From the NCBI GenBank assembly GCA_949130485.1, contig OX422185.1, positions 4,207,115-4,271,114 of the forward strand: a stretch of DNA of 64,000 bases. The letters run 5' to 3'. Below the pieces are notes generated by a model that made no database searches, was not told the DNA's origin, and was given only the letters and a program-made list of their open reading frames with translations. This document shows positions 9,701 to 62,100 of this stretch, one piece after another (position 1 is the first letter of the stretch; every line of letters begins with the position of its first letter). Source of the DNA: Agelas oroides. Lineage: Eukaryota; Porifera; Demospongiae; Agelasida; Agelasidae. Position numbers and translations under genes: made by a program.

Positions 9701-12700
9701 CTATGATAATAATAATGTTCAGCAACTTGATGTGCAAGCTTATATAGTTGAGACAATGCTAGACTACACTAGTTATTTTAGAGGCAGAAGTTGTGATCTT
9801 GACTGCAAAAGACTTGCTGTACGTGTTGAATTTGTGTGGCGGGATGAATTTTTTTGCAAGTTTGTCCCTATGTGCACTACATGTTAGTATATGCGCTGCG
9901 CTATTTATTCAAGACGTATTTTCAAGAGTGCCTTGGGAATATAATGCATGGTGGCAATTGTTGAAGTTACATGCAGATTATCGACTTGACATTTTTACTT
10001 TTTCGAATGTTTCAATTATGTCATTCTTGTGTACTAGTTCTTGGTCTAGTGATCACTTCACTTTCTACTTCAACAAGATATATACCTCTTATAGCTAACA
10101 ATATTGTGCAGTATAGCTAATCTCTAGTCTCTTCAATTTTTCAGAGGAACATTCCCCGAGGACTGTTGTGGACAGTGTTTCCGACCTACCAGGAACTGTA
10201 AGCATGATTACACCAAACTATGAACAGCTTTTACCTTTTACACTGTGTTCACTGAAAAATCACAGGATGCCAGACATGCAATAAACCTCCTATAGTGTAT
10301 CCCAATGTCATTATGGCTACTACTTACATGCATATGCATGTTCAGTGATAATTCTATACTATGGTACATAATTATACAGATTCTGATGTATTTGTTTGTC
10401 AGTAAGCTACCATGTCAGAATGATTGCAAGTGATGTCATCATTGACCACAATTCATAAATACAAGATTTTTTATCTGAATAACATTGCCTTTTCTAACCA
10501 TAGCCACCAGAAAGCCATGAAGTAGATGACATGGATGAACACTCCAAAGGTTTAACCTTGAATTGTCTTTAATATAAAATTTGAGAAACCACCAGCCACT
10601 CATGATTACACCAACATTGATAAATCATTTTGCCAGATCAGAGGAAGCAATGGACATCTAATGTGACTTGATATTCATTAGTATCAAGGAAATCGTTTAG
10701 CAACACTAGCTACACCACCATCACCCCTCACACTAACCCCCAAAGTAATATCATGACATCATACATTCATATACCTAGGTAAAACAGTACTAAACTCTAT
10801 CTTCTGTGATCATCTTGGGGTGCAATTTAGACTTGAAATAAGAGGTAACAGATCATTTATATGCAAACTGAAATCATTAATCCTCATTGAGCTTTGCCTG
10901 TTAGAGAAAACCATCAACAAGAAATTTGAAAAGTTTACGTGGATGCTTGTACATGCAGCCTCATTCCTGGACTCTACCCTGCCCCTCAAGTCAGGGTGCT
11001 TATTATTCTTGGGGATAAGGCAACTGTACATAAGTAAAGGGACTGTGACAATTTCCAATATGGGAATGCAGATGACACTTCAATATGTTACATCATGGCC
11101 ACTGTGTTATATGGAGCAGACATAGCCCAGTTATAAGATGTAACTACCATTAGAGCCAGCATAAGATTATAATTATGTGCCAACTTGAGTTCTGTGTTGT
11201 ATATTGTAAAATCATTTTTTACAGACTACCTGAGAGGGTTGAATGTCATTGGAGAGATCAGTGTCCTGATCACCAGCAAGGCCCAGACCTTCCACTGGGT
11301 AGGCTATGGACTGAAGCTCCACATCCCCCAAGGGGCCCTACCAGCTGGCTTGAAGCAGTCTGAACTCACCATCAAGGTGGGCATATCTGGCCAGTTTACA
11401 CTCCCCCAGAACACGTCTCTTGTGAGTGCAGTCTACTGGCTTCACAGTGAGTACCAGTGTGAATTCTCCCAGCCCATCATAGTGGAACTACAGCACTGTG
11501 CAAAATCTTCACAAACATCAAAACTAAGCTTTGCAAGGTGCTCTCATTACAGTTTTCCATACAATTTTGAAATCCTGCAAGAAGGAAATTTTAGTCTAGA
11601 TGCATATGGGCGCATACAGCTTCGCAACTTTTCACTGATCACAGTGTTGAAGAGTTTGATATTTGGAGTAGATGACGTAAGGTACCATGCCTGGGTCTAC
11701 TACCTGTGGAGAGATGAGAATCAGAGAAAGATCCACTTTCTGATTACTAAGGACCTAGAAGCACATGCCACAGTATGTTCATTAAATTTTGAAATCAGTG
11801 TTATTTTCTAGTGTTGCTCATTAATGTTACTATGTAATTACAGGCAGTTGAACAGAAGTACAATGACAAAGGTGCCATAGTTGGACCACACCTACCAGTT
11901 GAGTTTGAAGCAAGTAGCATCTCACTGGAGCTACCTTCCAAGGGAGTTACTATTGGAAATGGATGGAAACTTCTTCCACTGATTTACCCAGAAGTGAGAT
12001 AGGTAGCTATGTGCATTGTTGGTCAGAACTCGTGATTACCAATGCTTGCTCTTATGCAGATTACTAAGGAATGGGTTGACAGTTTTGAGACTGGACGGGA
12101 AATCCCATCTTGCCAGATTAGAGCAGAATGGACTAAGCAGGGCAAGCCATCACAACTCACGCATGAAGTGACCCTCAAGGGTGCCAAGGAACCCAGAAAC
12201 TATTTCTACATTGAACTTGACTCTATCTCACCTGATACTACAGGTGGTAAGTTCATGTGTTGGCACAAGCCATTTGTGTATTGGCAGTTGGTCTCAGTAC
12301 TTCACCATTCAATCATCATTTCTAATGTTTTCACAAGAGTAAGTGCACTGCTTTGATAGTGTTAGTAATTTTGGATATCCACATGTCACATATGTAGCAT
12401 GGTATAGTTTATTCTATTAAACGCTTTTAAAGAGTAAGGCTGTATCATGATGTTGCGGGTATATGTATTGCACTAAATGGTGTCTAGATATTCAATGAGG
12501 ACATCTACACATGCACATCTCTTGCGACTCCATAATGTAGTACTCTTTCTCTTCCCAGGTGAATTGGACCGTGATCAAAGACCAAATGTCCAGTATAAGA
12601 ATGTTGATGACACTCGATTAGGCAAGTATCACATGACCACAATGTTGTATTATGTTACAGACATAGCCCAATATTATGATACAACTAAAATCGAGGCAGC

Positions 12701-15190: not shown

Positions 15191-15343
15191 TATTTATAGC
15201 TCAATGAATCTGCTAAGTGACGTCAGAGTAAACCCACAAGTGTTAGGAACAAGCCAGGGTATATAAGGACAGCATTAGACTCACTCAACGAACTAGAATA
15301 TTGTTAGACAATTTTTGGAAGACCTGGTGTATAAACCAGGTCT
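15191..15343 (+). ncRNA. snRNA-like unit, copy 1 (promoter to 3' hairpin)
   Basis: In order: tatttatagctcaatgaat (15191), palindrome TGACGTCA (15218-15225), block AACCCACAAGTGTTAGGAAC (15231-15250), TATATAA (15260-15266), Sm-like AATTTTTGG (15310-15318), and a perfect hairpin AGACCTGGT / ACCAGGTCT (15320-15328 with 15335-15343). TATA to Sm distance is 50 bp, so an RNA starting about 30 bp after the TATA box would be short, near 55 nt. The layout resembles Sm-class snRNA genes (upstream element, TATA, Sm site, 3' stem). It could instead be a short repeat with a promoter. No expression evidence. Confidence 0.4.
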
Positions 15344-26670: not shown

Positions 26671-28344
26671 TTCATATCACAGCCTTTTGGCTTGTATTTT
26701 GCAAGGTCAACGCAAACAGCAGTAAATACAGACATCCTTCTCAGAGACTACATATACAAGTTCTCCCCTAGCACCCCTTTCAGAGCACCAGAGGACTCAG
26801 GACACACTGCGCACAGATGAACCTTCCCCTAGCATCCCTCTCTTTGAGCACTGGAAAAGACAGCATAATCAAAGAGAGGCTGGGTATATACATTTTACTT
26901 TAAGTGTTAGGCATCCCATCCGTAATCCTGTGCTATCATCTCCAAGCTGGATAAAGCTTGCATTTGACTGATATTCACTTTTTCGATAAATGCATGATTG
27001 TATTTTTCAGTAACCACTTTGCCTTACCTGCCCAGAGCTTGTAGTGTGTGGCTACACTGACAGATAAACTATCCCCTCAAACTATATATCTTCCTGGCAC
27101 TTATGAGGCAGTGTTCAACTTGCTCCTTTGGATTCTTTGTTCTATCATCGAACATGGCAGCTATATAGCATGCATGCACAGCATTGACTTAGTGTGAACA
27201 AGTAGATCAACCTGAGAGCCCTGATCCCACATGCAAAATGTCTGCATATGCAATACGCTGCCATGTAGAGTCAACTCTTATTTTGTCCACTCTATCGTGT
27301 TCATAAACAATAGTCTCGGAAAAACACACACCACAGCATTGCACAGCAGGTTTACTAATTGTGCACCAAACACAAGAGTGTTGACCAGTCAAGGCTCATG
27401 GAAAATATGAGTCAAGCTTTTTTCTGTGCTGCTGGAGGCTGCTCTGAAATGTCAGTCTGTTTCCCCCTAGCTACAAAGCTGCCAGAAATGCATCCCTTTT
27501 CTGATATTCAATACTGACTAGGTAGTTTAATACTATACTGATACCATGCTTACTTGTTCTCTTCTCCCTCGATGTGCTGCATACTCTTGCTTAGCGCTTG
27601 TAGGCAGAAATTCGGTGAAGTTAAATCTGGTAGGGAGAGGGTTAAAATCTAAATTTGGGGTAAACCCATAATTTTTTTCTCATGAGCAAGTCTGTACATA
27701 ACGAGATTCCTTACGCAGGTGCGATCATTCCCAGGAAACCTGGGAATTCGCTTACGCTTGGAAATTGTCAGTAAAATCAATACGTATATGTCCAATATAT
27801 TTTCGTGTCATTGAAAGATACAGCTGTTTGCCAGTTGAATTACCTTCAACTCCATGAATGTAGAGGATAATCGCCGTGTATACGAAGGCAAAGATGCTTT
27901 GTTGCGGCTACCAACTAGTTTCAGTGAGTCAGTACGCTACGAGGTGCTGTTATTTGCATGCTTGTAAACAAAGCGAGTTGGGTATAGGGCAGGGTAGTCT
28001 CACCATTGGGGTCATTTCTGATTGCGAAATTTAATGGCGTGAGTGTGCATTGTTTTGTTGTAGCTCTTTTTTCAGCTTTGTACGTATAAAATATCTTGTC
28101 CGTATATTATTGCACGTGGACAATCTGCATATTATTGCACGTGGAAAATCTACGTAAACGTTACAATTTTACGGAAATATAGCGGAAATGGCCGCACACG
28201 CTCAAGCTGTCGATACCAGGCCGTGTTTCTCCTCCCACGTGGCCTGGGCATGAGGCTAGGGTAATACTGAATGTCTCATTAGCATACACTCATAAACACA
28301 CAGATAGTACATCCATTTACTATTCACTCTAACATATTAAAATG

Positions 28345-28508
28345 TACAGAGGAAGTCACTTATCCGAACTTCAGTTATCTGAATCTTCACTTAATATCTG
28401 AACCCCCAATATAATTGTGATATCTTGCTGAACATTAAATAGAAAGTATAAATTCATTCAGTTATCCAAACAACCTCTGGTTTCATGAATAAGTGACTTC
28501 CTACTGTA
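28345..28508. mobile_element. TA-flanked miniature TIR element, 164 bp
   Basis: Ends CAGAGGAAGTCACTTAT and, reversed, CAGTAGGAAGTCACTTAT, flanked by TA on both sides. Fits a Tc1/mariner or pogo-derived miniature element. Confidence 0.75.
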
Positions 28509-28754
28509 TGCACATTGTATGTATAGCAAACAAGTGTTGGGAACAAGAACAATGATGTACGTCACCATGTACTCTTGCACTACACAGATGCATTTGCACG
28601 CTGATTCTGGAACAGATGTATCTTCACCTAGCTGGCAGTGGCAACATCGACTTGTGTGTGCTCTTACTCATCGTAAGTTTGCCCACAATAAGCTGGAGCT
28701 GGTTATGAGTGTGGATGAGAGTTGTTTCTGTGAGTGAGTGATGTACATGTGGGT

Positions 28755-29262
28755 GTTGTGTTTGACGACGTGAGACTGAACTTTCTGGTCTGGTGTCGCT
28801 GGCGACATGGGGCTGTGAGCTTTCTGGTCTGGTGTTGTGTTTGATGACATGAGACTGAGCTTTCTGGTGTGGTGTCGCTGGCTGTGAGCTTTCTGGTGTG
28901 GTGTGTGTGTGACGATGTGAGACTGAGCTTTCTGGTGTGGTGTCGCTGGTGACACAGGACTGTGAGCTTTCTGGTGTTGTGTTGGACGATGTGAGACTGA
29001 GCTTTCTGGTGTGGTGTTGCTGGGGACATGAGACTGAGCTTTCTGGTCTGGTGTGTGTGACGACATGGGACTGAGCTTTCTGGTGTGGTGTGTGTGACGA
29101 CGTGAGACTGTGAGCTTTCTAGTGTGGTGTGTGTGACGACGTGAGACTGTGAGCTTTCTAGTCTGGTTTGGCTGGCAACATGAGACTGAGCTTTCTGGTG
29201 TGGTTTGGCTGGCTACGCGGGACTGTGAGCTTTCTGGTCTGGTGTGGCTGGTGACAGAGTTA
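28755..29262. repeat. Minisatellite, about 36-41 bp unit
   Basis: Repeats of gagctttctggtgtggtgt joined to ggcgacatgagactg-type segments. Read on the minus strand it gives open frames of repeated QKAQSH / QKAHSP words. I treat that as a by-product of unit lengths divisible by three, not a gene. Confidence 0.85.
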
Positions 29263-29493
29263 AACTGATCACACCCATTCTAGACATACATGTTGTGTAC
29301 ACTGCTGGTGTTCTATATACATTGCAGTATATACGTAACTGCCTAGTGCAAAACCAATGATGCATCAACAACTCGTTCACGCTCGCTCCACAATGCACCA
29401 CATTCACCTAGTAATTATGTTCGTGTAAATGTGTACACTGCTGGTGTTCTTTTTAGGATGCAGTTTGTTAAACCTAGCACTAATTAACAGCAA

Positions 29494-29678
29494 TATTCAT
29501 AGCCCAATGAATACCTATGCTCCCCTGACGTCACACAAACCCACAAGTGTTAGGAACAAGGCAGGGTATATATAGGACAGCTGCAGCTTCCCTACCGAAT
29601 GCTTGCGAAGTTTTACCTGTGCCTGCAGCTCCAAAGAGTATACAAATTTTTGTAAAAACCTGGTTGTTTACTGGGTTT
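29494..29678 (+). ncRNA. snRNA-like unit, copy 2
   Basis: TATTCATAGCCCAATGAATA (29494), TGACGTCA (29526-29533), AACCCACAAGTGTTAGGAAC, TATATATA (29567-29574), Sm-like AATTTTTGT (29645-29653), stem AAACCTGG / CTGGGTTT (29656-29663 with 29671-29678). The stem differs from copy 1 at its second pair (A-T instead of G-C), a compensatory change. The middle holds its own pairing, AGCTGCAG with CTGCAGCT. Confidence 0.42.
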
Positions 29679-29883
29679 ATGTGTTGAAGGTTCCAAGTAC
29701 AGTAAAATTAGTATTTTACAAGGTTACCTGTGTAACATTTCCCACAAAGAGCTTCCATATTTTTACAACCAGTCGGCTATAGTTGAGCTTTGTTTCAGTT
29801 CACAGTCAAGTGACAGTAGGCGGCTGCTCGGTGGAGTACGAGTACAAACTGCTACGTCAGTTTACTACGACGGTGGGAGGAAC

Positions 29884-29921
29884 TAGGTGCTATTTGTGGC
29901 TTAAACAAAGCCAGAGCACCT
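29884..29921. other. Strong hairpin
   Basis: Arms AGGTGCT and AGCACCT enclose TGGCTT and AAGCCA around a short loop, giving about 13 paired bases. It lies between snRNA-like copies 2 and 3. Its role is unknown. Confidence 0.5.
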
Positions 29922-30203
29922 CACTGCAGGGCCACACAAAGTACATCTCAGATTGAAACAGAGTGCATGGTAGTGACTGAAATACTGCTGGACACTCGCA
30001 AAATGAGTACCCAGTAACTTAGCAAACAAATTGTGACAAGGTTGAACATTTATTAGGGAAAACTCTCTGTGTGGCCCTGCAGCTGTGTCATATGCATAAT
30101 TATTATATTATGAAACTCTGGTTTATGGCATTCTCTGCCCAACAATGCAAGCTAACTGGTGTAGCAGTTTGTACTGTAATGGATAAGTACTGTGACTATA
30201 GCG

Positions 30204-30308
30204 TGCCAGCGTACTTGAAGACAGCTGCAGACCAGCAGTGTGGAACTCTTTCCAGAGGGTGGAACACTGATGAATAACTTTTGAAAGACCTGGCTGTTTG
30301 TTGGGTCT
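30204..30308 (+). ncRNA. snRNA-like unit, copy 3 (decayed promoter)
   Basis: gccagcgtacttgaagacag matches gccagggtatataaggacag of the other copies but has lost its TATA box. A weak Sm-like AACTTTTGA (30276-30284) is followed by stem AGACCTGG / TTGGGTCT (30286-30293 with 30301-30308), fully paired if G-U is allowed. Upstream, CAGTGT / ACACTG can pair. Confidence 0.3.
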
Positions 30309-30528
30309 GTGTCTACTAACCATACACCAATGTTAGATCACAGCACACACATTATGTAGCTAGCAGCAGAGTCTCTCTCACTCTATATACTGTCTGTGAG
30401 TGCACTCACCCAGCTGGGTGGCTCCCTATGGGAGATGCTTTATCATCCCAGATATTCAGTACCTGCCAGCATTTCCCTTTCATCCAAGTTATTTATGTAA
30501 TGCTCGTAACATCAAATGTTTGTATTAC

Positions 30529-30551
30529 CCCCCCCCCCCCCCCCCCCCCCC
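30529..30551. repeat. Poly-C run
   Basis: About 23 consecutive C bases, followed by a short (ca)n tract. Confidence 0.85.
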
Positions 30552-30755
30552 TCCCTACACACACACACATGCATAGCGGAGTTAAGGATTCACTTTTGTC
30601 CATCAGTCTGCTGCAGAATCTTTGTCATTGCTATCAGTGAGCACCCAACTTATACTAGACAGCTTCATCATCATGAGGTGAGCCTGAGCGTTTTGTGTGC
30701 AGGTTCTAAGTGAGTTTATGGAGAGAATAATGAAGCACCCAGAGTAGACTGACAG

Positions 30756-30938
30756 TATTCATAGAGCTATGAATATTTGCTGCAAACGTCACAAAACCCA
30801 CAAAACCCACAAGTGTTAGGAACAAGCCAGGGTATTTAAAGACAGCTGCTGGTTATTCCACTACTGCTATCCGTAATGCTTTTTTGGTCTGTGGAATTAA
30901 CGACAAATTTTTGTAAGGCCTGGTCACCGGCTGGGTCT
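30756..30938 (+). ncRNA. snRNA-like unit, copy 4
   Basis: TATTCATAGAGCTATGAATA (30756), aacgtcac, AACCCACAAGTGTTAGGAAC, TATTTAAA (30833-30840), Sm-like AATTTTTGT (30906-30914), stem AGGCCTGG / CTGGGTCT (30916-30923 with 30931-30938), fully paired with G-U. The middle can pair TTATTCCAC with GTGGAATTAA. The upstream block aaacccac is repeated. Confidence 0.42.
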
Positions 30939-31034
30939 ATATTTCCTTTTTCTAGTGTCCACATCAAAGTCAAATTACAGCAGTTTCCCTATCACATGTA
31001 GCTAGCAGTTGTCATACTGTACCGTAACCCAAGG

Positions 31035-31138
31035 TATTTTAGGACGACTGCTGGTCATCTCTTTTGTGATTTTCATCCTTATTCTGTACCTTGGTCTCCA
31101 AGAAAAATTTTTTGAGGACCTGGACACTTGCTGGGTCT
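31035..31138 (+). ncRNA. snRNA-like unit, copy 5 (shortened promoter)
   Basis: TATTTTAGGACGACTGCTGG (31035) corresponds to the TATA region of copy 4. Sm-like AATTTTTTG (31106-31114) and stem GGACCTGG / CTGGGTCT (31116-31123 with 31131-31138) follow. It lies only about 200 bp after copy 4 and lacks the far upstream block. Confidence 0.35.
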
Positions 31139-32143
31139 ATTTCCACATCAATGATACACCACAGCACACATGTAGTTTGTTACACATCTACTGTCAGTGT
31201 AACGTTGTTCCCAGGCTCTTCACCACAACTTTATGTGACAAGACTGTTAGGAGCATGGGATAGAGAGTTACCAACCCGAATGTGTGACAATCAAAGTGTA
31301 AATCTATCTAAATTTTATCTTAGCACGTGTACATTCCTTGTGGCAAGGTCATTCAGGCAAAGTCATGTGCAAATTTTTGTCGTTGGTTTGAGAAAAGGAC
31401 TTTGCGTGAAAGCTAAAATTAAGGGCATGAGTACAAACCTTTCGGTGGGGAACATTGGTCATCTGATTCTAAAATTACATTGCCACAATCCCTTGCCGTA
31501 TTGCTATATAATGTAACCAACGTACACAGAGCTAGCTAGTGGAATTATGTAACATGCATTGTTAGATTGTACAGATCTAAAAGCAAATCGCTGTAACCAG
31601 CGTAAGGTGGAAGAAATCCAGCTCTTTTCAACAAACAAGTCTTTGTGGGACTACAAGTCAGTAACGATAGTTTCCCAATGTTTTATATCAGGGATATAAT
31701 TTGTACTGGGCTCACTGTGTTGCAACGTGGCATTGACAACATTCAGTGGGTCTAGTATGGGGGGAGCAGCAGCTTTCGGTAGTAGATTTGAACAGTGACA
31801 AACCACTCTGAATGGCATATCAAGCAAAGAGTTGGCCAAATTCCATCTAGATCAAATTTACTGCTACTTGTGTGGCTTTATTCAAGTTTTGTGAGACCTC
31901 CTGGGTCAAAGAACAGCTCGTAGAAGCGATTTTGACAGCCTCACTTGTCTATTCTAAAATGACGACACAAATGCATTGCGTTTCCATTCCATATTATTCC
32001 ACTCTACTATCTATGGGCTCAAATACACTAGATAGATACGTTACTGAGCATGTATGAAACACGTGATCCCAACACTAACAGAAGTTTATGGCAAGCCGTT
32101 TGTTTCAAAATTGTCGATCCAAAAATTGTGATGTGTGCGTCTC

Positions 32144-32773
32144 CAGAATCGACTCGATTGTGCTCAGAATAGACTCGATTGTGATAAGAATCGACTCAAT
32201 TGTAATAAAAATTGACTCGATTGTGATAAGTAAGAATCGACTCGATTGTGCTCAGAATAGACTCGATTGTGATAAGAATCGACTCAATGTAATAAAAATT
32301 GACTCGATTGTGATAAGAATCGACTCGATTGTGCTCAGAATAGACTCGATTGTGATAAGAATCGACTCAATTGTAATAAAAATTGACTCGATTGTGATAA
32401 GTAAGAATCGACTCGATTGTGCTCAGAATAGACTCGATTGTGATAAGAATCAACTCAATGTAATAAAAATTGACTCGATTGTGATAAGAATCGACTCGAT
32501 TGTGCTCAGAATAGACTCGATTGTGATAAGAATCGACTCAATTGTAATAAAAATTGACTCGATTGTGATAAGTAAGAACTGACTCAATTGTAATAAAAAT
32601 CGACTAGATTGTCCGCAAAATCGACTCGGTCAAAAAACTGACTTGATTGTGATAAGAATCGACTCGATTGTGATAAGAATCGACTCGATTGTAATAAGAA
32701 TCGACTCGATTGTCCGCATAATTGACTCGGTCAAAAAAACCGATTCGATGCAAAACTATCAACTCGATTGTGT
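32144..32773. repeat. 21-bp minisatellite with ~171-bp higher-order unit
   Basis: Variants of agaatcgactcgattgtgata; the core aatcgactcgatt is itself palindromic. An extra agta marks a higher-order period of about 171 bp (near 32229, 32400 and 32570). Open frames of repeated RIDSIV words follow from the 21-bp unit and are not evidence of a gene. Confidence 0.9.
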
Positions 32774-33118
32774 GCCATATACCGGGAGGTGTGTGCAGGC
32801 TAGATGCACAAAAGTAGGGGGAGCTGTACTATAGTGTTAGACTACACCCCTTAATCACCCCACACGTGCAATGAAAGTTACACTGGGTTGCTTACTTTGG
32901 AGGGTGAAGCAAGTCCAAAATAGTTGTGGCTGAATGCCTAGACATGGCAGGTAAGCTGACTCTTGAGACTTAAGTTTATGGTCACTTCAAATTCACATGC
33001 ATATTCGTAAGTGCATGTGTTGAGCTGAGTCAGCAAAATGGTAGAGGATTAACCTCTGCCAGTATGTGTGCCAATTACAATAGCTTAATACCAGTCACAC
33101 AGTGAACCCTAGCTATCA

Positions 33119-33200
33119 TATTCATAGCCCATAGAAACAGCCAGGGTATATAAGGACAGCTGCCAGAAAGACAGCACGGAACAACAGAATAACTTTGGTT
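33119..33200 (+). ncRNA. snRNA-like unit, copy 6 (broken)
   Basis: Has TATTCATAGCCCA and ccagggtatataaggacagctgcc (TATATAA at 33147-33153), but the block between them is deleted. The 3' part has only a weak AATAACTTTGG and no 3' stem. Likely dead. Confidence 0.25.
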
Positions 33201-33716
33201 GACCAGAAATTAAGCTGCTTTGTACTTTGTCGACGCTGAACATGCAACTGCTATCCAGCATAACAGCTACACTCTTGCTCTCTGTATCTGAAATTGTAGA
33301 GGTGCTACCAAAACTGGGAAGGTCTTGTGGGAGATCTCAATAGTTCAGTGCCTAAAATTTGAGAAATTTATCACTGCCCATTCTGGGCAATGTGAAGTAA
33401 TAGTATGAGTAATGCCCTACATACTAATAATATACTTTAAAGTATATTTGCATACTATAAACTGCTATAATCATTATTAGTGTAGCTACATAAGTGGTGG
33501 AACCAGGGAGGGTGGGTGGGGTCCAGAAGAACGCAAGATGATAGGGTGGCAAGCTTCAGTGGTGAGAGGCGAGGAAGCGGGGAACTTCCGCGAAGTAGCT
33601 GGTGTGTCCATCGTTGCTGCAGGCGGTCCACGTTAGACACTATAAACTGTAGACAGCCAAGCGGCAGTATTCTGACTCTTCTTCTGTAGCTTGCTCACCC
33701 TTGTCAGACTATTCCA

Positions 33717-33910
33717 TATTCATAGTCAATGAATATCTCTAAACCTGCAATGAATACTCCACCACTAGCGTCACACTAAACCCATAAGTGTTTGGAACAA
33801 ACCAAGGTATATAAGCTAGGGCTGTTAAGGTCAGACTGCTTGCAACCTGCAGAGCAGTCCAACCATCCTGTGGAAGGAAAATTTTTGGAAGACCTATTTT
33901 AATTGGGTCT
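33717..33910 (+). ncRNA. snRNA-like unit, copy 7
   Basis: TATTCATAGTCAATGAATA (33717), agcgtcac, a variant of the conserved block (acccataagtgtttggaac), TATATAA (33818-33824), Sm-like AATTTTTGG (33880-33888), stem AGACCTA / TGGGTCT (33890-33896 with 33904-33910). The middle has a strong hairpin, GACTGCTTGCA with TGCAgAGCAGTC (33834-33859), though part of it may lie before the start site. Confidence 0.4.
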
Positions 33911-44149: not shown

Positions 44150-47100
44150 GTGAGTAACCTTTCTTTCTAAACATGCTAACTTTGGGCCAAACACAGTGAG
44201 TAAATATCAGGTGTACATTGGATGTCTAGTTGTGTGCGTAAGCATGAACACAAGGGTGATAAACAGCACACTCGTGTTATAATAAACATACAACATACAC
44301 TGTATACACCTTCAATATGGTTGCTGTACACGATGTTTGTTGGAGATGACTATACCGCTAACAGTATATTGGTATGTGATATGTTGAGACTGCAGTCATG
44401 AGATTACACTAAGCTGACCGTCTAATTTTGTAAGAAGTAAATAATCTTTCTTTCTGTCCATCAGGGGAATTTTCGACACATAGCCGTCATACAGGGCAAT
44501 CTAGACACATTGAGACACCTTATTGAGAAAGGAACTGATATTGATATTGATGTCAGAGATGACAATGGGGTAAGTCAACAATTCATACCGATACAAGTGT
44601 ACAACTCCTGCATGGTTTCTACATCTATATACCATCTGGACAGTATGATACATGCAACAGCAGTTAACGAGACCAACAACTCTGCATATTGTAAGGTGCT
44701 AACTGCATGGCACCTTATAAAAGCCACTTGAGGCCCAGCTAACTACCCATCCTTTGTGCATGTTTGGGTATCAGATTTTTGGAGCAGTAATGCCCCAAAC
44801 GTCACCAGAAGGTTAGGGCTTAACCTTAACCCTGCACCCAAGCAACCCTGAACCTCACCCTTCTCTACTCATGCACACACGCCATCTCCTTACAAGAGTA
44901 GCATTACAGATGACAAACTGATAGAATGATATAGACTCAGGACATGAATACACAATAAACACAACCTGACATACACCATGAGTTGTATATATAACACTAA
45001 GACTGTGTTAGAGATTTGCTGAGAGTGGATGTGAATTAGAACAAACACAGAGCTTCGCTACCAGCCGAGAGTTTGGATGACTGAATCAGGGATACTGCAG
45101 TGTGCTGTTGTTGTCACAGCTCCTATCCTAAACTGTGGCCGGCGTAGACCTGACAATCCACTCCAGCTTTCATCAGAGCACTGCGAACAGCCTGCACGAA
45201 ATGTTCCCTCGTTAAACTTCTGCTATCACCAAGTTGAAAAAGTGGACCCTCTTTATCACCGCATATTGCAAGGTAGGCGAGCATAGCCGAAATTGGGCAA
45301 AGTGCATTTCTCATGCAACCAACATATACATTGACACCCTTCCTGTATGGATCTGTTTTCGAAGCCTTTAAGTGGATTTCCATAACAGATGGGCTTTCTT
45401 TGCTGTCAATGGCTACATCTTCAAAAGTCAGTTGGGCTCCTGCATCAAAAGACATGTCAGTTGGTACAGTGATCTCGCCTGCTCTGAAGAAGCCAAAGAA
45501 ACATAGCGTGCACGCTGCCCAGAGCATGATGCAATTATAAACGGTGGATGATTGCTCCCACACCGTCCGTATCTGCCGTAGTATGTTGTATGTTTGGAGT
45601 AATAGGTAAGCGCTTCCTAGGCTTCTTACCTTGACGTACCTGAGAAGACTTAATACCCTGCTCCAACCTTGGCATATATATTAATTATTTCCAAATTGGT
45701 ATACGATTTCAAATGCCTGTTGATCAAAATGACTTCTACGTAGCTATTGACATTAAATGCAGTACTGCACAGCCAAAGTGATAAGTTAAATGGAACAAAG
45801 TAATATATCAATTTTGTCAGCCAAGGAGCCTGACAAAGGCTGTTGAGAGCATTCAGAAGTGAGGCAGTGAAATGGTACATAATAGTGGACTGGAGAAGAG
45901 CATGGGGGAATGTCCACTCACAGCTTGCCGTGAGTATATGCCCATGCTTTACTCAAACCTAGGCCATATTCAAGTAACAGCAAGGAACAAGAAGTGCATG
46001 TTGCCCAGCTATTTGTAGATTATTGCTGCATGGACTGAACATGGAAGAAACAACTTTGATTTGTGGAACGTGTGAATGTGATCAAGTGATACATACAGTA
46101 TGAATGAAAGCAGTTATTGGGGCGAGCCTGAGCGAGCCCCACACTAGCGAGTTGGCTGGTGGATTCTCAATATGTACGTATGGTACGTACGTGATTCCGT
46201 ATATATACATCCTGCCCATTTGTGCACGATACAATATTTCCATATTGCATGTTGTTTCATGTAACCACTGTTGCTCAAGAGACAAGGCTAGCAGGACAGA
46301 AAGGCTGAACAGTGGGAACCAACGTAACAGGGACTTAAAAACGGTGAGGAAAGGGAGGCACGACTAGCAAGACGGAGACTGATTATTAACGTACTCCGTG
46401 ACACTGCCGCCACCGGGAGTGCTCAGTGTATTAAAGACAGCGATTATCTTGTGAGGACCCGAACCAGAGAGGTCTGCGTGTCACAACTCCAGTAATTTTG
46501 CTCTGGAAAGGGACAATATAGTCTACACCACCCTGACTACCAACAGTGGTGTTGAGATAGCAATGACACAGCCCTAATGGAAAAACTGAACCAACCAACA
46601 TCCACTAACTCACTGGCAATGTGTAAAAAAACTACTACCATACACCATTTGAAGCTCATTTGGTCAATAGAAAGTACAATGTAAGCTCTCTTGTAAACAG
46701 GAAATAATATGTCATCACTTTTATATCACACTAATGTCATGTTGTTTACAACAAAAATTGATAAACCATAACGGTGATTGTGTACACAAGAAAAAGCATG
46801 TTAGTCTCTTCCAAACCAGTTCATTGTTTCTCACCCCTAAGCAGAAAACTAGATGTGGGTTGGCCAAGAATTGAAGACTTTCAATTACGAGGTCATTCCT
46901 GTGTGAATAATGTACAACACTGCCTTTGTCATTTATACACTCGGATGAGGCACAGTAGACAAACAGCAACTTTACTTCTTACTAAACGCCACACCAACTT
47001 CGACACCTCGACAAGAAGTGCAAAAGGGCATGCGTGTATACAAACTGCGCATGCATAATTGTAGTCTTTGGCATACTGCTTGCCCAGGCTCGCCCCACAA

Positions 47101-59100: not shown

Positions 59101-62100
59101 TACAAACAATGCAGACATTATGACAGTCTAGGCAAGTGGCAGACATTCACTTATGTGTAGCTATCTGTTTCAAAAGGATGCATACATTCATAGTACCAAC
59201 TGAGTAAGTTCTGCTACCCTCTGTAGTATGTCAGAATGTTGGTCATTACCCACAGTACATATTTTACTTCATTACTTAAATGTTGCCACTGGAATAGTCA
59301 ATACCCTACACTACCCTCAAATAGTAGCTCCACAACTGGTAGTCTCGTCCCCAGACCGAATTTTATGCACGTGACCTGCGGCCTTGTTGATGGTCTGGAC
59401 ACTTTCACAAGAAAACTGGATCCAGTTGATGTATAGTGGCCAGTAATTGTAGGTGTGGTGATGTATACACGTAATTTACTTCCCTCAGCAATCTGATTGG
59501 TATTACAACATACCACTACAGCTTATACTTAGGCCCCAGTTTTCCCAGTGAACGTGTTCAGACTCTGTTTTTGCAGCGCACACTCGAAAACCTCGGTCTG
59601 GGGACAAAGCTACAAAACTGGAAGAGGTGAGCAAATAATCCACTACTTGCCAGAAGGTGTCATAGTGATTATGGTACTGCTGATTCTAAGTTCAAGTTAG
59701 CTCATTCTCAGGCCACCAATAAGTTTGTCACAAAGAGATTTAGATGTTATGGGGAAATAAAAGAAAGTGAAAAGGCCGGCAGCTGCAGGGAATCAAACCT
59801 AGGACAACCTGGCTTTAGCAGCTAGTACTCTACCACTGAGCTACAACAGCTGGCTAACCTGCCTGGATATCAGTTAATTTTTTGCTTCCTTTTGTAGTTT
59901 ATTTCTCTCCATCAGGTGACTTACCTGCACTTGGCAGTTCAAGGAGGCCATATGAACACTGTGAAATACCTTGTTGACAAAGGAGCTAGAATCAACATCA
60001 AAGATGATCATGGGGTAAGTGTTTGAGACTATAGCAGTGAAAATAGATTATTTTAAAACAAAAGCTTGTTAGTTGAGGATTTGTGGTAATTACTTATTGT
60101 AGATGACAGTGGTATTCATGTTTGTGAACAGAGTGAGGAATAAATTTAGGGAGAAAATATGTTGGATCCAGCTGGGATTCAAGTTAACCCAATACTGAAT
60201 ACCATAGCCTAGCACTCTTACCACTAAGTTACTTGGACCCATGGGCTAGGTAAGCAGCATTGCCTAGAAGCCTCAGCTGAATTCCAACTTAAGAGTATCT
60301 AAATAACTAGTAGAAATTGGGTTTGAATCTGGTCATCACAGTTGTAGCATATGAGGAGGATGAGTACTAGTATTTATACACAATGCTAGTCTTCCTAAAC
60401 TACATTACCTACTTGAAATTCGTTACTATTTTTACATCAGCGGACTCCCCTGCACATGGCAGCTAGAGAAGGCTGTGACTCCACAGTAAAACTCCTTGCT
60501 GACAAAGGAGCTGATATCAACATCAAAGATTATAATGGGGTATGTGAGGCTATACTACTGACATTGCATTAATATTGTACCTTGACAATAAATAGTGTCT
60601 GTGTCTCCATAGATAGTAGTTCTACTACTCTACTATCTTTGCAGTCTCCATGCAAGTATGCCTTAACCCAGTAATCCCTAAACAATCTATTTGGCATCTT
60701 TTGCTTACATCAGCACTGTGAAAATGTGCTGTGGAGATACGTAGGGTCTGGTTATTTTCTATGGTGGGACAGGTGGACGTGGGTGTAAACCTATGGGTAA
60801 AAGCACCAGCTGACAGCTGTTGGGTTTTGCTATAGAAAAATCTTTGTGGATCATTTCTCTCCTTCTTGGCACAAGCTTAGAAAATGCTCTTGTTGGTCCT
60901 CCATTTCTGGCACTGGAGGCAGTTTTCAGTCTGGTTACAAAATGTAGTTAGAGTCATAAATCTGCACACAATGGCTGAAAGCACCCTTGGCTGAAAGTCT
61001 ATTTGGCTTAGTCAGCTTTGCCAGACCTTTTATCCACCCAGTATTTGTTCAATGATGTCAGTGGCAACTCAGGTCAGTTAAGGTGGCCCCCAAATGTATT
61101 ACTCATGACACAGAAGTATGCGAAAGTATTGCTATAGTTCGTGAAAGTATTTCCATAGTTTGCAGAGATTGAATAGCTGCGTGTGTAAGCTTCTTAGCTT
61201 TGCCACTGTTAGTCTAGCTGCTAGTCCATATTGTTTAGCTTTGTATTATCGATGGTGTGAAGTAGGTGGGTCTGACCAAGAGTTTATAACAGTAAGAGTG
61301 TGCAGTTCCCATATGGTTTGGTTCTCAATACTTTCACGCCATATTTGATGCCCCCTCACGTGATACGTGTGGGTGGAGCATGCATTGCGCATGCGTAGTA
61401 TAGTATGGCACTTGTATGACGGTTGAGCTGTACACATTAGACGGAAAGGTGTGCATGATCGTTCGAAAATGCATGTGGTCTAATGGTTAGGGCTCAGTGT
61501 ACAGGTTAGGGTTAGGGTTAGGGCTAGGGTCAGGAAGTGGGGTTTATTCCATCTTTTTTTTTTTTAAAAGTGGCAAACACCTTATGCGGTGCCACTTGTG
61601 GCAATGTGGTGTAAGTACGACGTAGGGACCCTGGCCCCACCCCCTCATGGGTCATGTGACAGGGGACATGAAACAGCGTGAAAGTAATGAGACCCCATAT
61701 GGTTTCTATACCCGCCATCTGGATAGGATGACATAGGCAATCAGCAGTGAATATTGTAAGCTGTGAAAACACAGCAGTAAAGAGACGGGCTTTTACTACA
61801 GTGTTCACATAGCTAATGTACACTAGCACCTAGAATGGCTTCATGTTAAGTACCTACTAAGCATACTCACTGCTGATTGCCTATGTCATCCTATCCAGAT
61901 TGCGGGTGTAGAAACCATATGGGAGTTGCACACTCTTACTGTTATAAACTCTTAGTCTGACTTACCAAAGGGTTGCCATTGAGACCAAGCATGGCGTGTT
62001 TCCGGGAGCAAGAGAGAGGAATATGGCTGGAGCTACTGGAGTGACGATGACCTATCATCTTTGGAGGTTGATGCGGAATGTCAGATGCTTAAATTTCTGG

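Follow-up and report, generated by a model that had tools for sequence, protein, structure and literature searches.

Within the window, a 64,000-nucleotide stretch of the genome of the sponge Agelas oroides, a sequence-only reading had placed six snRNA-like units on one strand between positions 29494 and 33910. A scan of the window with a family model, which was built in part from the window units themselves, confirmed six plus-strand units in this segment, three of them intact and three decayed or partial (Table 1). A AATTTTTG-like site followed by a stem had been reported for five of the six, and this count also stood, the exception being the unit at 33126. The intact unit at 29493 has a near-identical duplicate at C3:4129430, and one additional intact unit, with a perfect 9-bp stem, lies outside the segment. 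An Rfam scan of the whole window at gathering thresholds returned one tRNA elsewhere and no U5 or U7 match.

Table 1. Units in the window, with predicted elements (PSE, proximal element; scores from the family model)
Unit	Strand	State	Distal elements, further motif	PSE	TATA	Predicted start and body	Sm-like site	Stem-loop	Score
15190..15343	+	intact	TATTTATAGCTCAATGAAT, TGACGTCA	15231-15250	15260	15290	15310-15318	15320-15343 (9 bp)	103.4 bits
29493..29678	+	intact	TATTCATAG...CAATGAATA, TGACGTCA	29538-29557	29567	29597, then variable body	AATTTTTGT 29645-29653	29656-29678	89.8 bits
30205..30311	+	decayed		weak promoter remnant			AACTTTTG	GACCTGG/TTGGGTC-type stem	30.7 bits, model positions 23-138
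30755..30938	+	intact	TATTCATAG...ATGAATA, ACGTCA	30804-30823	30833	30863	AATTTTTGT 30906-30914	30916-30938 (10 bp)	105.6 bits
31026..31141	+	partial		none recognisable	TATA region	body	AATTTTTTG	stem	37.8 bits, model positions 21-138
33126..33214	+	decayed		mostly gone	retained		none recognised	none recognised	17.7 bits, E 0.012
33719..33910	+	intact	CAATGAATA elements, GCGTCA	33779-33798	33808	33838	33880-33888	33890-33910	88.6 bits

Units of this kind recur in the genome beyond chance. The promoter element had at least 424 matches in 259 Mb (at most 3 mismatches), compared with 40 for the reversed pattern, and a string joining the Sm-like site to the stem had at least 246 (at most 2 mismatches), compared with 28 for its control; both genome-wide counts are lower bounds. 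Among the exact element matches listed, 51 of 73 fall within 0.77 Mb that includes the window. An Sm-like string lay no more than 230 nt away in 92 of the 99 element matches examined. Reciprocally, 17 loci were picked from the Sm-plus-stem matches that had no promoter match among the matches listed; 14 of these have the element with at most 5 mismatches, at 63 to 98 nt, while one has a degenerate element and two a palindromic insert. Palindromic MITE-like inserts were seen in several units. The 21-base promoter string had no exact match in viral and prokaryote contig collections.

The units had been credited with a conserved control region of small-RNA type, and comparison with the genome's own snRNA genes identified this region as an snRNA-type promoter. 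The PSE of the units is nearly identical to that of the U5 genes (13 to 18 of 20 bases, with 18 reached in two U5 genes), and TATA spacing and, reckoned through TATA, distance to the gene start are likewise shared. The best matrix match placed the element on the plus strand at -59 to -62 in all 10 U5 genes found and in all 8 U2 genes fetched (of 11 above the cut-off); in 2 of these 8, the matrix score did not exceed that of shuffled sequence (42 and 47 of 300). From the start of the element to TATA there are 29 nt in the units, 30 in U2, 29 to 30 in U5, and 34 in U6; from the start of the element to the gene start there are 59 to 62 nt in U5 and U2 and 64 in U6. At the place predicted from TATA, a pyrimidine-purine step occurs in 44 of 91 units versus 23.5% at neighbouring places (P 2e-7); this start signal was weaker, at 5 of 15, in the separate set chosen by the Sm-like site. 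On these sequence comparisons, the units share their core promoter elements with the U5 and U2 genes of this genome. Because their spacing is like that of U2 and U5 and not that of U6, transcription by RNA polymerase II seems probable. Transcription by RNA polymerase III was judged unlikely, both on this spacing and because the five T within the Sm-like site would stop that polymerase. The spacing between element and TATA is reported to set the choice of polymerase in plants (PMC1796607); in Drosophila, with spacings of 8 versus 12 bp, the choice is reported to be set by the element itself (PMC4227766).

At the predicted 3′ end, the 91 units show an Sm-type pattern (A, a run of U, G) and then a stem-loop, with a fairly constant distance of 78.6 ± 7.8 nt between the end of the element and the Sm site. 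Stems of at least 6 bp were present in 80 of 91 units, compared with about 4.3 of 91 when the 3′ part was shuffled. In the 76 modules with a stem after the Sm-like site, 91.5% of cells were paired and 7 of 9 pairs were altered on both sides, and neither value was reached in any of 500 shuffles. These compensatory changes uphold the earlier claim that the site and hairpin are conserved. No clear 3′ box motif was found in 80 units, of which 15 have AAACA, versus 2 of 80 further downstream.

The U5 genes of the same genome also end in an Sm-type site (AATTTGTTG) and a short terminal hairpin, but no U5 5′ part was recognised in the units, and their body differs between copies. U5 identity was rejected, since the RF00020 threshold was reached neither in the window at gathering thresholds nor in 20 units searched at E ≤ 1, where a single U5 match scored 28.7 of 40 bits. 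That search gave 13 matches in all, 10 of them to miRNA models in the flanks of two loci (L048 and L070). Two of the 20 units matched SmY (RF01844) at 25.2 and 23.8 of 39 bits, below threshold, and SmY identity was likewise rejected. The units also do not qualify as spliced-leader RNAs, as 91 of them showed no conserved 5′ leader exon with a GT donor (no position above about 0.2 bit).

The sequence between TATA and the Sm site had been described as variable, and almost no letters are in fact shared there among 91 units. About 50 bases between the promoter and the 3′ end differ in almost every one of about 100 copies examined, and the information from the predicted start to 3 bases before the Sm site is near zero. 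Predicted structure in the bodies was not in excess (mean z of -0.23; n = 90). Comparison of the 91 bodies with one another yielded 9 pairs similar in sense and a single antisense match of 12 nt, versus 0 in the shuffled control. Of twenty bodies searched against the genome, 19 matched their own loci and two known duplicates and nothing else, and none of the 20 gave any other match. The same search missed L045, a partial relative of L047, so short or imperfect complementarity would escape it. In a comparison with U2, U5, and U6, the longest exact complementary matches were no longer than those of shuffled bodies. A sense-strand match of 13 nt to U5 was seen in one body, as an uncontrolled figure.

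The body appears to diverge faster than its adjacent flanks, clearly so in one tandem paralog group only. In this group (L130 to L133), the bodies are 46% identical, which is the random level, whereas the promoters are 99%, the 3′ modules 94%, and the adjacent flanks 74 to 85% alike; downstream, identity is 0.74 over the next 100 nt and 0.81 over the next 150 nt, compared with 0.46 for the body. The effect was weak in two other groups. Excess body divergence over the downstream flank was seen in just 4 of 11 paralog clusters, and neutral drift is therefore enough elsewhere. A first pairwise test gave 86 of 115 pairs, which are not independent of one another, and TG repeats are present in one large group's flank.

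These data bear on two explanations that assign no role to the body sequence. The units might be functionless, either a repeat that carries a promoter or a family of snRNA pseudogenes, multiplied through duplication or transposition; this would fit the many copies, some of them decayed, and the palindromic MITE-like inserts. We consider this reading very improbable: the compensatory changes in the stem show constraint, as does a promoter kept at 99% among paralogs with flanks of 74 to 85%, and the search of limited sensitivity found no further genomic copies of 19 bodies. In addition, homology in 18 loci of three related groups extends past the unit without fixed ends, beginning anywhere from about -50 to -567 around the element and stopping anywhere from about +128 to +751. 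Shared boundaries, part of what the earlier reading had named as evidence against itself, were thus not seen at these loci, and a transposon or LTR origin is not supported. Alternatively, the RNAs may be made and bind Sm proteins while the body is a spacer that drifts freely, the function residing in the hairpin and the Sm ring; an Sm-protein store or an SmY-like factor would be examples. The fairly constant distance from element to Sm site with free sequence between, the 7 of 11 clusters without excess body divergence, and the SmY scores of 2 of 20 units, below threshold but on the predicted RNA strand, all agree with such a spacer, as does the lack of complementarity found between 20 bodies and the genome or between bodies and U2, U5, and U6. 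Nonetheless, it seems rather unlikely, since the L130 to L133 bodies have changed faster than drift in that group and since a bulk function could be served by identical copies, which makes hundreds of diverged genes hard to explain.

Nematode type-1 (21U) piRNA loci have unique bodies, and the units might likewise be clustered precursors of Piwi or Argonaute guides, one promoter per guide, with each transcript losing all but its 5′ part, which would be loaded. Two hallmarks of the 21U type are present in the units together with copy-unique bodies, namely a promoter of snRNA type for each locus and clusters along the chromosome. Caenorhabditis elegans 21U loci similarly have single-gene promoters, with a motif descended from that of snRNA genes, and lie in clustered chromosomal domains; their primary transcripts are about 28 nt long, however, and the available part of the source mentions no Sm-like site or hairpin (PMC6436959). 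In the units, the Sm-like site and hairpin are kept about 40 nt past the predicted start, which argues for an RNA longer than about 28 nt, and a covarying module of this kind would be needless in a disposable tail. Moreover, no first nucleotide is fixed among the 91 units. We regard a guide-precursor function as improbable.

The earlier interpretation, a diversifying family of small Sm-class RNAs, is supported, because its three predictions hold at the level of sequence: an snRNA-type promoter, a covarying Sm and hairpin end, and an unconserved body. The units probably constitute a family of several hundred predicted Sm-class RNA genes with a U5/U2 core promoter, in which the 5′ segment of the RNA is the recognition sequence. 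RNA polymerase II would transcribe each unit into an RNA of about 70 nt, which would be capped and loaded with an Sm ring. The 5′ segment of about 40 nt, predicted to be unstructured and nearly unique to each copy, would stay free and likely base-pair with a target, in the manner of the U7 5′ end. Diversity of the bodies could stem from recombination and fast turnover within a large array of duplicating units, while selection would keep the promoter and the 3′ module.

Among known small RNAs, U7 snRNA is short and has a free 5′ segment that pairs with histone pre-mRNA, an Sm-type site, and a 3′ hairpin. The same three parts are predicted for the units, but U7 has one kept 5′ sequence, whereas the 5′ segment differs in most units. 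Nematode SmY is an Sm-class snRNA outside the spliceosomal set, and we know of no report that either SmY or the Drosophila LU snRNA forms a variable repertoire. The HSURs of Herpesvirus saimiri are Sm-class as well, but they are a few viral RNAs with no cellular array. LU is reported to be Sm-class outside the spliceosomal set, as predicted for the units, and differs from them in being conserved between Drosophila species (PMC4053861), and the HSURs are reported to be noncoding RNAs that bind other RNAs, as proposed for the units (PMC9226524).

More tentatively, the units may supply the cell with a repertoire of Sm-ring guide RNAs, several hundred in number and encoded in a megabase-scale array with U5-type promoters. 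Their 40-nt 5′ segments would be swapped or rapidly renewed on a constant chassis and might track moving targets outside the genome, such as viruses. The Sm-class snRNAs known otherwise are few and strongly conserved. Titles and abstract openings, mostly outside subscription papers and bioRxiv preprints, yielded no description of a variable Sm-class repertoire. If hundreds of genes combine the U5-type promoter with an Sm/hairpin end, most of them with a 5′ segment of their own, the snRNP chassis would lend itself to use as a guide system that is programmable and diversifies. An origin from snRNA promoters is also reported for the piRNA loci of nematodes (PMC6436959), and the snRNA promoter may have been used twice for guide repertoires. 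Such a repertoire would give a eukaryote another diversified system of recognition by guide RNA, in addition to the guides of Argonaute and Piwi proteins.

On sequence grounds, the units (predicted small-RNA genes) almost certainly form a large family with a true snRNA-type promoter, a variable body between predicted start and Sm-like site, and a conserved Sm-like/hairpin end, both ends being constrained. The sequence-only reading had placed six same-strand units between window positions 29494 and 33910, and three intact and three decayed or partial units were indeed found there. The common promoter module that it described in better-preserved copies was likewise confirmed: all four intact window units carry, one after another, ATTCAT/ATGAAT-type distal elements, a site like TGACGTCA, the promoter element (PSE; 20 bases, AACCCACAAGTGTTAGGAAC), TATA, body, Sm-like site (AATTTTTGG or AATTTTTGT), and stem-loop. 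The model recognizing the decayed units had window units in its training set.

Units and other features of the window (positions counted from the window start)
Feature	Position	Strand	Remarks
Intact unit	PSE at 15231	+	
Intact unit	PSE at 29538	+	
Intact unit	PSE at 30804	+	
Intact unit	PSE at 33779	+	
Decayed or partial unit	about 30205	+	covariance-model recognition
Decayed or partial unit	about 31026	+	covariance-model recognition
Decayed or partial unit	about 33126	+	covariance-model recognition
Tandem array	28624-29279		imperfect ~37-39 bp unit (AGCTTTCTGGTGTGGTGT...); directly upstream of unit 29538
Tandem array	32123-32772		21-base unit (ATCGACTCGATTGTG...), 171-base higher-order period; between two units
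ORF	11173-11811		212 aa, ZU5 domain
Open frame	45123-45680	-	no Pfam match; resembles a tyrosine-recombinase-type piece
tRNA gene	59778-59850	-	Rfam RF00005, 33.8 bits

The window spans C3:4207115-4271114 (plus strand), and the array upstream of unit 29538 belongs to a block with a second copy on the same contig, at C3:4128-4130k. A search of the protein collection gave 217 homologues of the ZU5 ORF, and short contigs carry many of them.

For the counts, stretches of about 420 bases were taken from 80 places, 60 of them within the main cluster and 20 outside it, chosen from overlapping sets of 100 listed element and 100 listed Sm-plus-stem matches; longer stretches were also used. A scan of this DNA that allowed up to 4 mismatches located the element at 99 distinct sites, 92 of them with an Sm-like string within 230 nt; the string was absent within that distance from L003, L011_8457, L031, L063, L083, L100, and window_28525 (L-numbers are further loci of this genome, suffixes hit positions). 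L046_26 was left out, as the best Sm string for it, 187 nt off, is that of the next unit, and 91 units were analyzed. Among 17 loci picked for the Sm-plus-stem string without a listed element, 14 have an element (≤5 mismatches) at 63 to 98 nt, exact in 3; L113 has a degenerate element, and L112 and L121 hold a palindromic MITE-like insert. Such inserts, mostly with GCCTCGTTCCCAGGC ends, lie in or near the bodies of units at L107, L112, L121, and L031.

In the genome (259 Mb, 141 contigs), the element at ≤3 mismatches has at least 424 matches versus 40 for the reversed pattern, and the Sm-plus-stem string AATTTTTGGAAGACCTGG at ≤2 mismatches has at least 246 versus 28 for its control. The family is larger than these counts, since exact elements at L124, L126, and L128 (C3:4.99-5.03 Mb; chosen by Sm string) are missing from the genome-wide element listing. 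Among the matches listed, 51 of 73 exact elements lie within C3:4119845-4892024, the first 7 all on the plus strand and 40 of the next 44 on the minus strand; other contigs hold further members. The covariance model was run on 264 kb, made up of the window and L009-L028 (~4 kb of it included twice), and scored 18 places at E ≤ 0.001. Every one is on the plus strand and falls in L009-L013 or the window; L014-L028 (150 kb) yielded none. Contig C5 carries inverted pairs of exact elements at 286560(+)/287558(-) and 292529(+)/293527(-), both with 998-base spacing and 6 kb apart.

TATA begins 9 bases past the element in 80/91 units (7 have none by the pattern used), and 78.6 ± 7.8 nt separate the end of the element from the Sm site (91 units). 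The 120 bases upstream contain CAATGAATA in 60/91 units, ATTCATAG in 46/91, and ACGTCA in 34/91, versus 0, 0, and 2 of 91 in a downstream control (mean 98 bases). We compared this promoter with those of snRNA genes of the same genome identified by Rfam models (4 U6, 12 U2, and 10 U5 matches, with 3, 11, and 10 over cut-off). The best family-element matrix site lies at -60 or -61 in all 8 fetched U2 genes, with ≤4/300 shuffles scoring as high in six and 42/300 and 47/300 in the other two; for one of the U2 genes, L151, a plain mismatch count places the best site at -83 instead. In all 10 U5 genes it lies at -59 to -62, each time far above the second best (scored with no shuffle control). Element start to TATA is 30 bases in U2, 29 to 30 in U5, and 29 in the family, whose element starts 59 bases from the predicted gene start by TATA spacing; two U6 genes have the element at -64 (the second-best site in one) and TATA at 34. 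By this spacing and the distance to gene start, the units are arranged like U5 and U2 genes and unlike U6. The element matches the family consensus at 13 to 18 of 20 bases in U5, 11 to 15 in U2, and 10 to 11 in the two U6 genes. Polymerase choice can follow element spacing in plants (PMC1796607) and element sequence in flies (PMC4227766). Two U6-like copies were also seen, L111 with a U6 promoter (its U6 match covering the first 68 positions only) and L110 without one.

The start, predicted from the snRNA genes, falls 30 nt past the TATA start. A pyrimidine-purine step occurs there in 44/91 units versus a mean of 23.5% at neighboring positions (P = 2e-7), in 40/78 when anchored on TATA, and in all four intact window units; the count of 5/15 in the small, separate Sm-chosen set is uninformative. 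The predicted RNA is ~72 nt long (5 to 95% range, 59 to 87; n = 80), with a body of ~40 nt.

At the 3′ end, stems of ≥6 bp are present in 80/91 units versus about 4.3/91 with the 3′ part shuffled. We aligned 76 modules (Sm-like site plus stem-loop), namely the 80 stemmed units minus four near-duplicates or odd lengths. Pairing is seen in 91.5% of cells, a figure biased upward by selection on stem length, and in 7/9 stem pairs both partners have changed; either value was reached by 0/500 shuffles, which ignore relatedness, and sliding the partner one column lowers pairing to 45 to 49%. The module is strongly conserved in the family, as the sequence-only reading proposed.

The divergent middle proposed earlier is also evident, with information at or below ~0.2 bit per position from position 29 past the element until 3 bases short of the Sm site (91 units). 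Over 115 non-independent pairs with upstream identity of ≥0.75, mean identity is 0.56 in the body versus 0.52 at random, 0.84 in the module, and 0.63 in the 40-nt downstream flank versus 0.54 at random; the flank is more similar than the body in only 4 of 11 clusters, and TG repeats occur in the flank of one large cluster. The clean case for body divergence is a tandem group with long common flanks, L130-L133, where mean identity (six pairs) is 0.73 in the far upstream DNA, 0.85 in the near upstream DNA, 0.99 in the promoter, 0.46 in the body, 0.94 in the module, and 0.74, 0.81, and 0.66 in the successive 100, 150, and 150 nt downstream (random baselines, 0.505 for 45-mers and 0.543 for 150-mers). 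L135, a 98% identical copy of L130 including the body, was excluded, and L129 and L134 of the same neighborhood were treated separately. L129/L134 (body, 0.62; next 100 nt, 0.70) and L144-L146 (0.66 and 0.74) lean weakly the same way, their further flanks (0.57 and 0.58) falling below the body. A 93% duplication of window 28258-30856 stops where the body of unit 30804 begins, and the L010 unit has a promoter resembling that of unit 30804 and a 3′ end and downstream flank (81%) resembling those of unit 31026, a pattern suggestive of recombination between promoters and 3′ ends by way of the bodies. At L043, L045, and L047, most of the body is common and the upstream flanks differ, an exception to body variability that perhaps reflects a kept function or body exchange.

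Excess predicted structure was not seen in bodies (mean z, -0.23; n = 90), nor was excess complementarity to U2, U5, or U6. Comparing 91 bodies gave 9 sense-alike pairs and one 12-nt antisense match, versus 0 in a single shuffled control. Twenty bodies joined as one genome query returned 21 places, the own loci of 19 plus two known duplicates, with nothing for the shortest (23 nt) and no other place for any; this query would miss short or imperfect complementarity, since L045, a known partial relative of L047, was not returned.

Neither the window nor 20 units contained an Rfam snRNA family above its threshold, and our search of the open-access literature found no such repertoire described. 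In anatomy, the nearest counterparts are this genome's own U5 genes (promoter and terminal hairpin) and, by layout, U7. Closest in genome logic are the 21U piRNA loci of nematodes, with a motif that evolved from the snRNA promoter (PMC6436959). The units would be transcribed by RNA polymerase II, and their RNA would be capped and loaded with an Sm ring, and the free 5′ segment would base-pair with a target. U7 finds its partner through just such a free 5′ segment beside the Sm ring, and for this reason recognition by the body is the likeliest use of the unit architecture, the main rival being a spacer whose sequence has no role.
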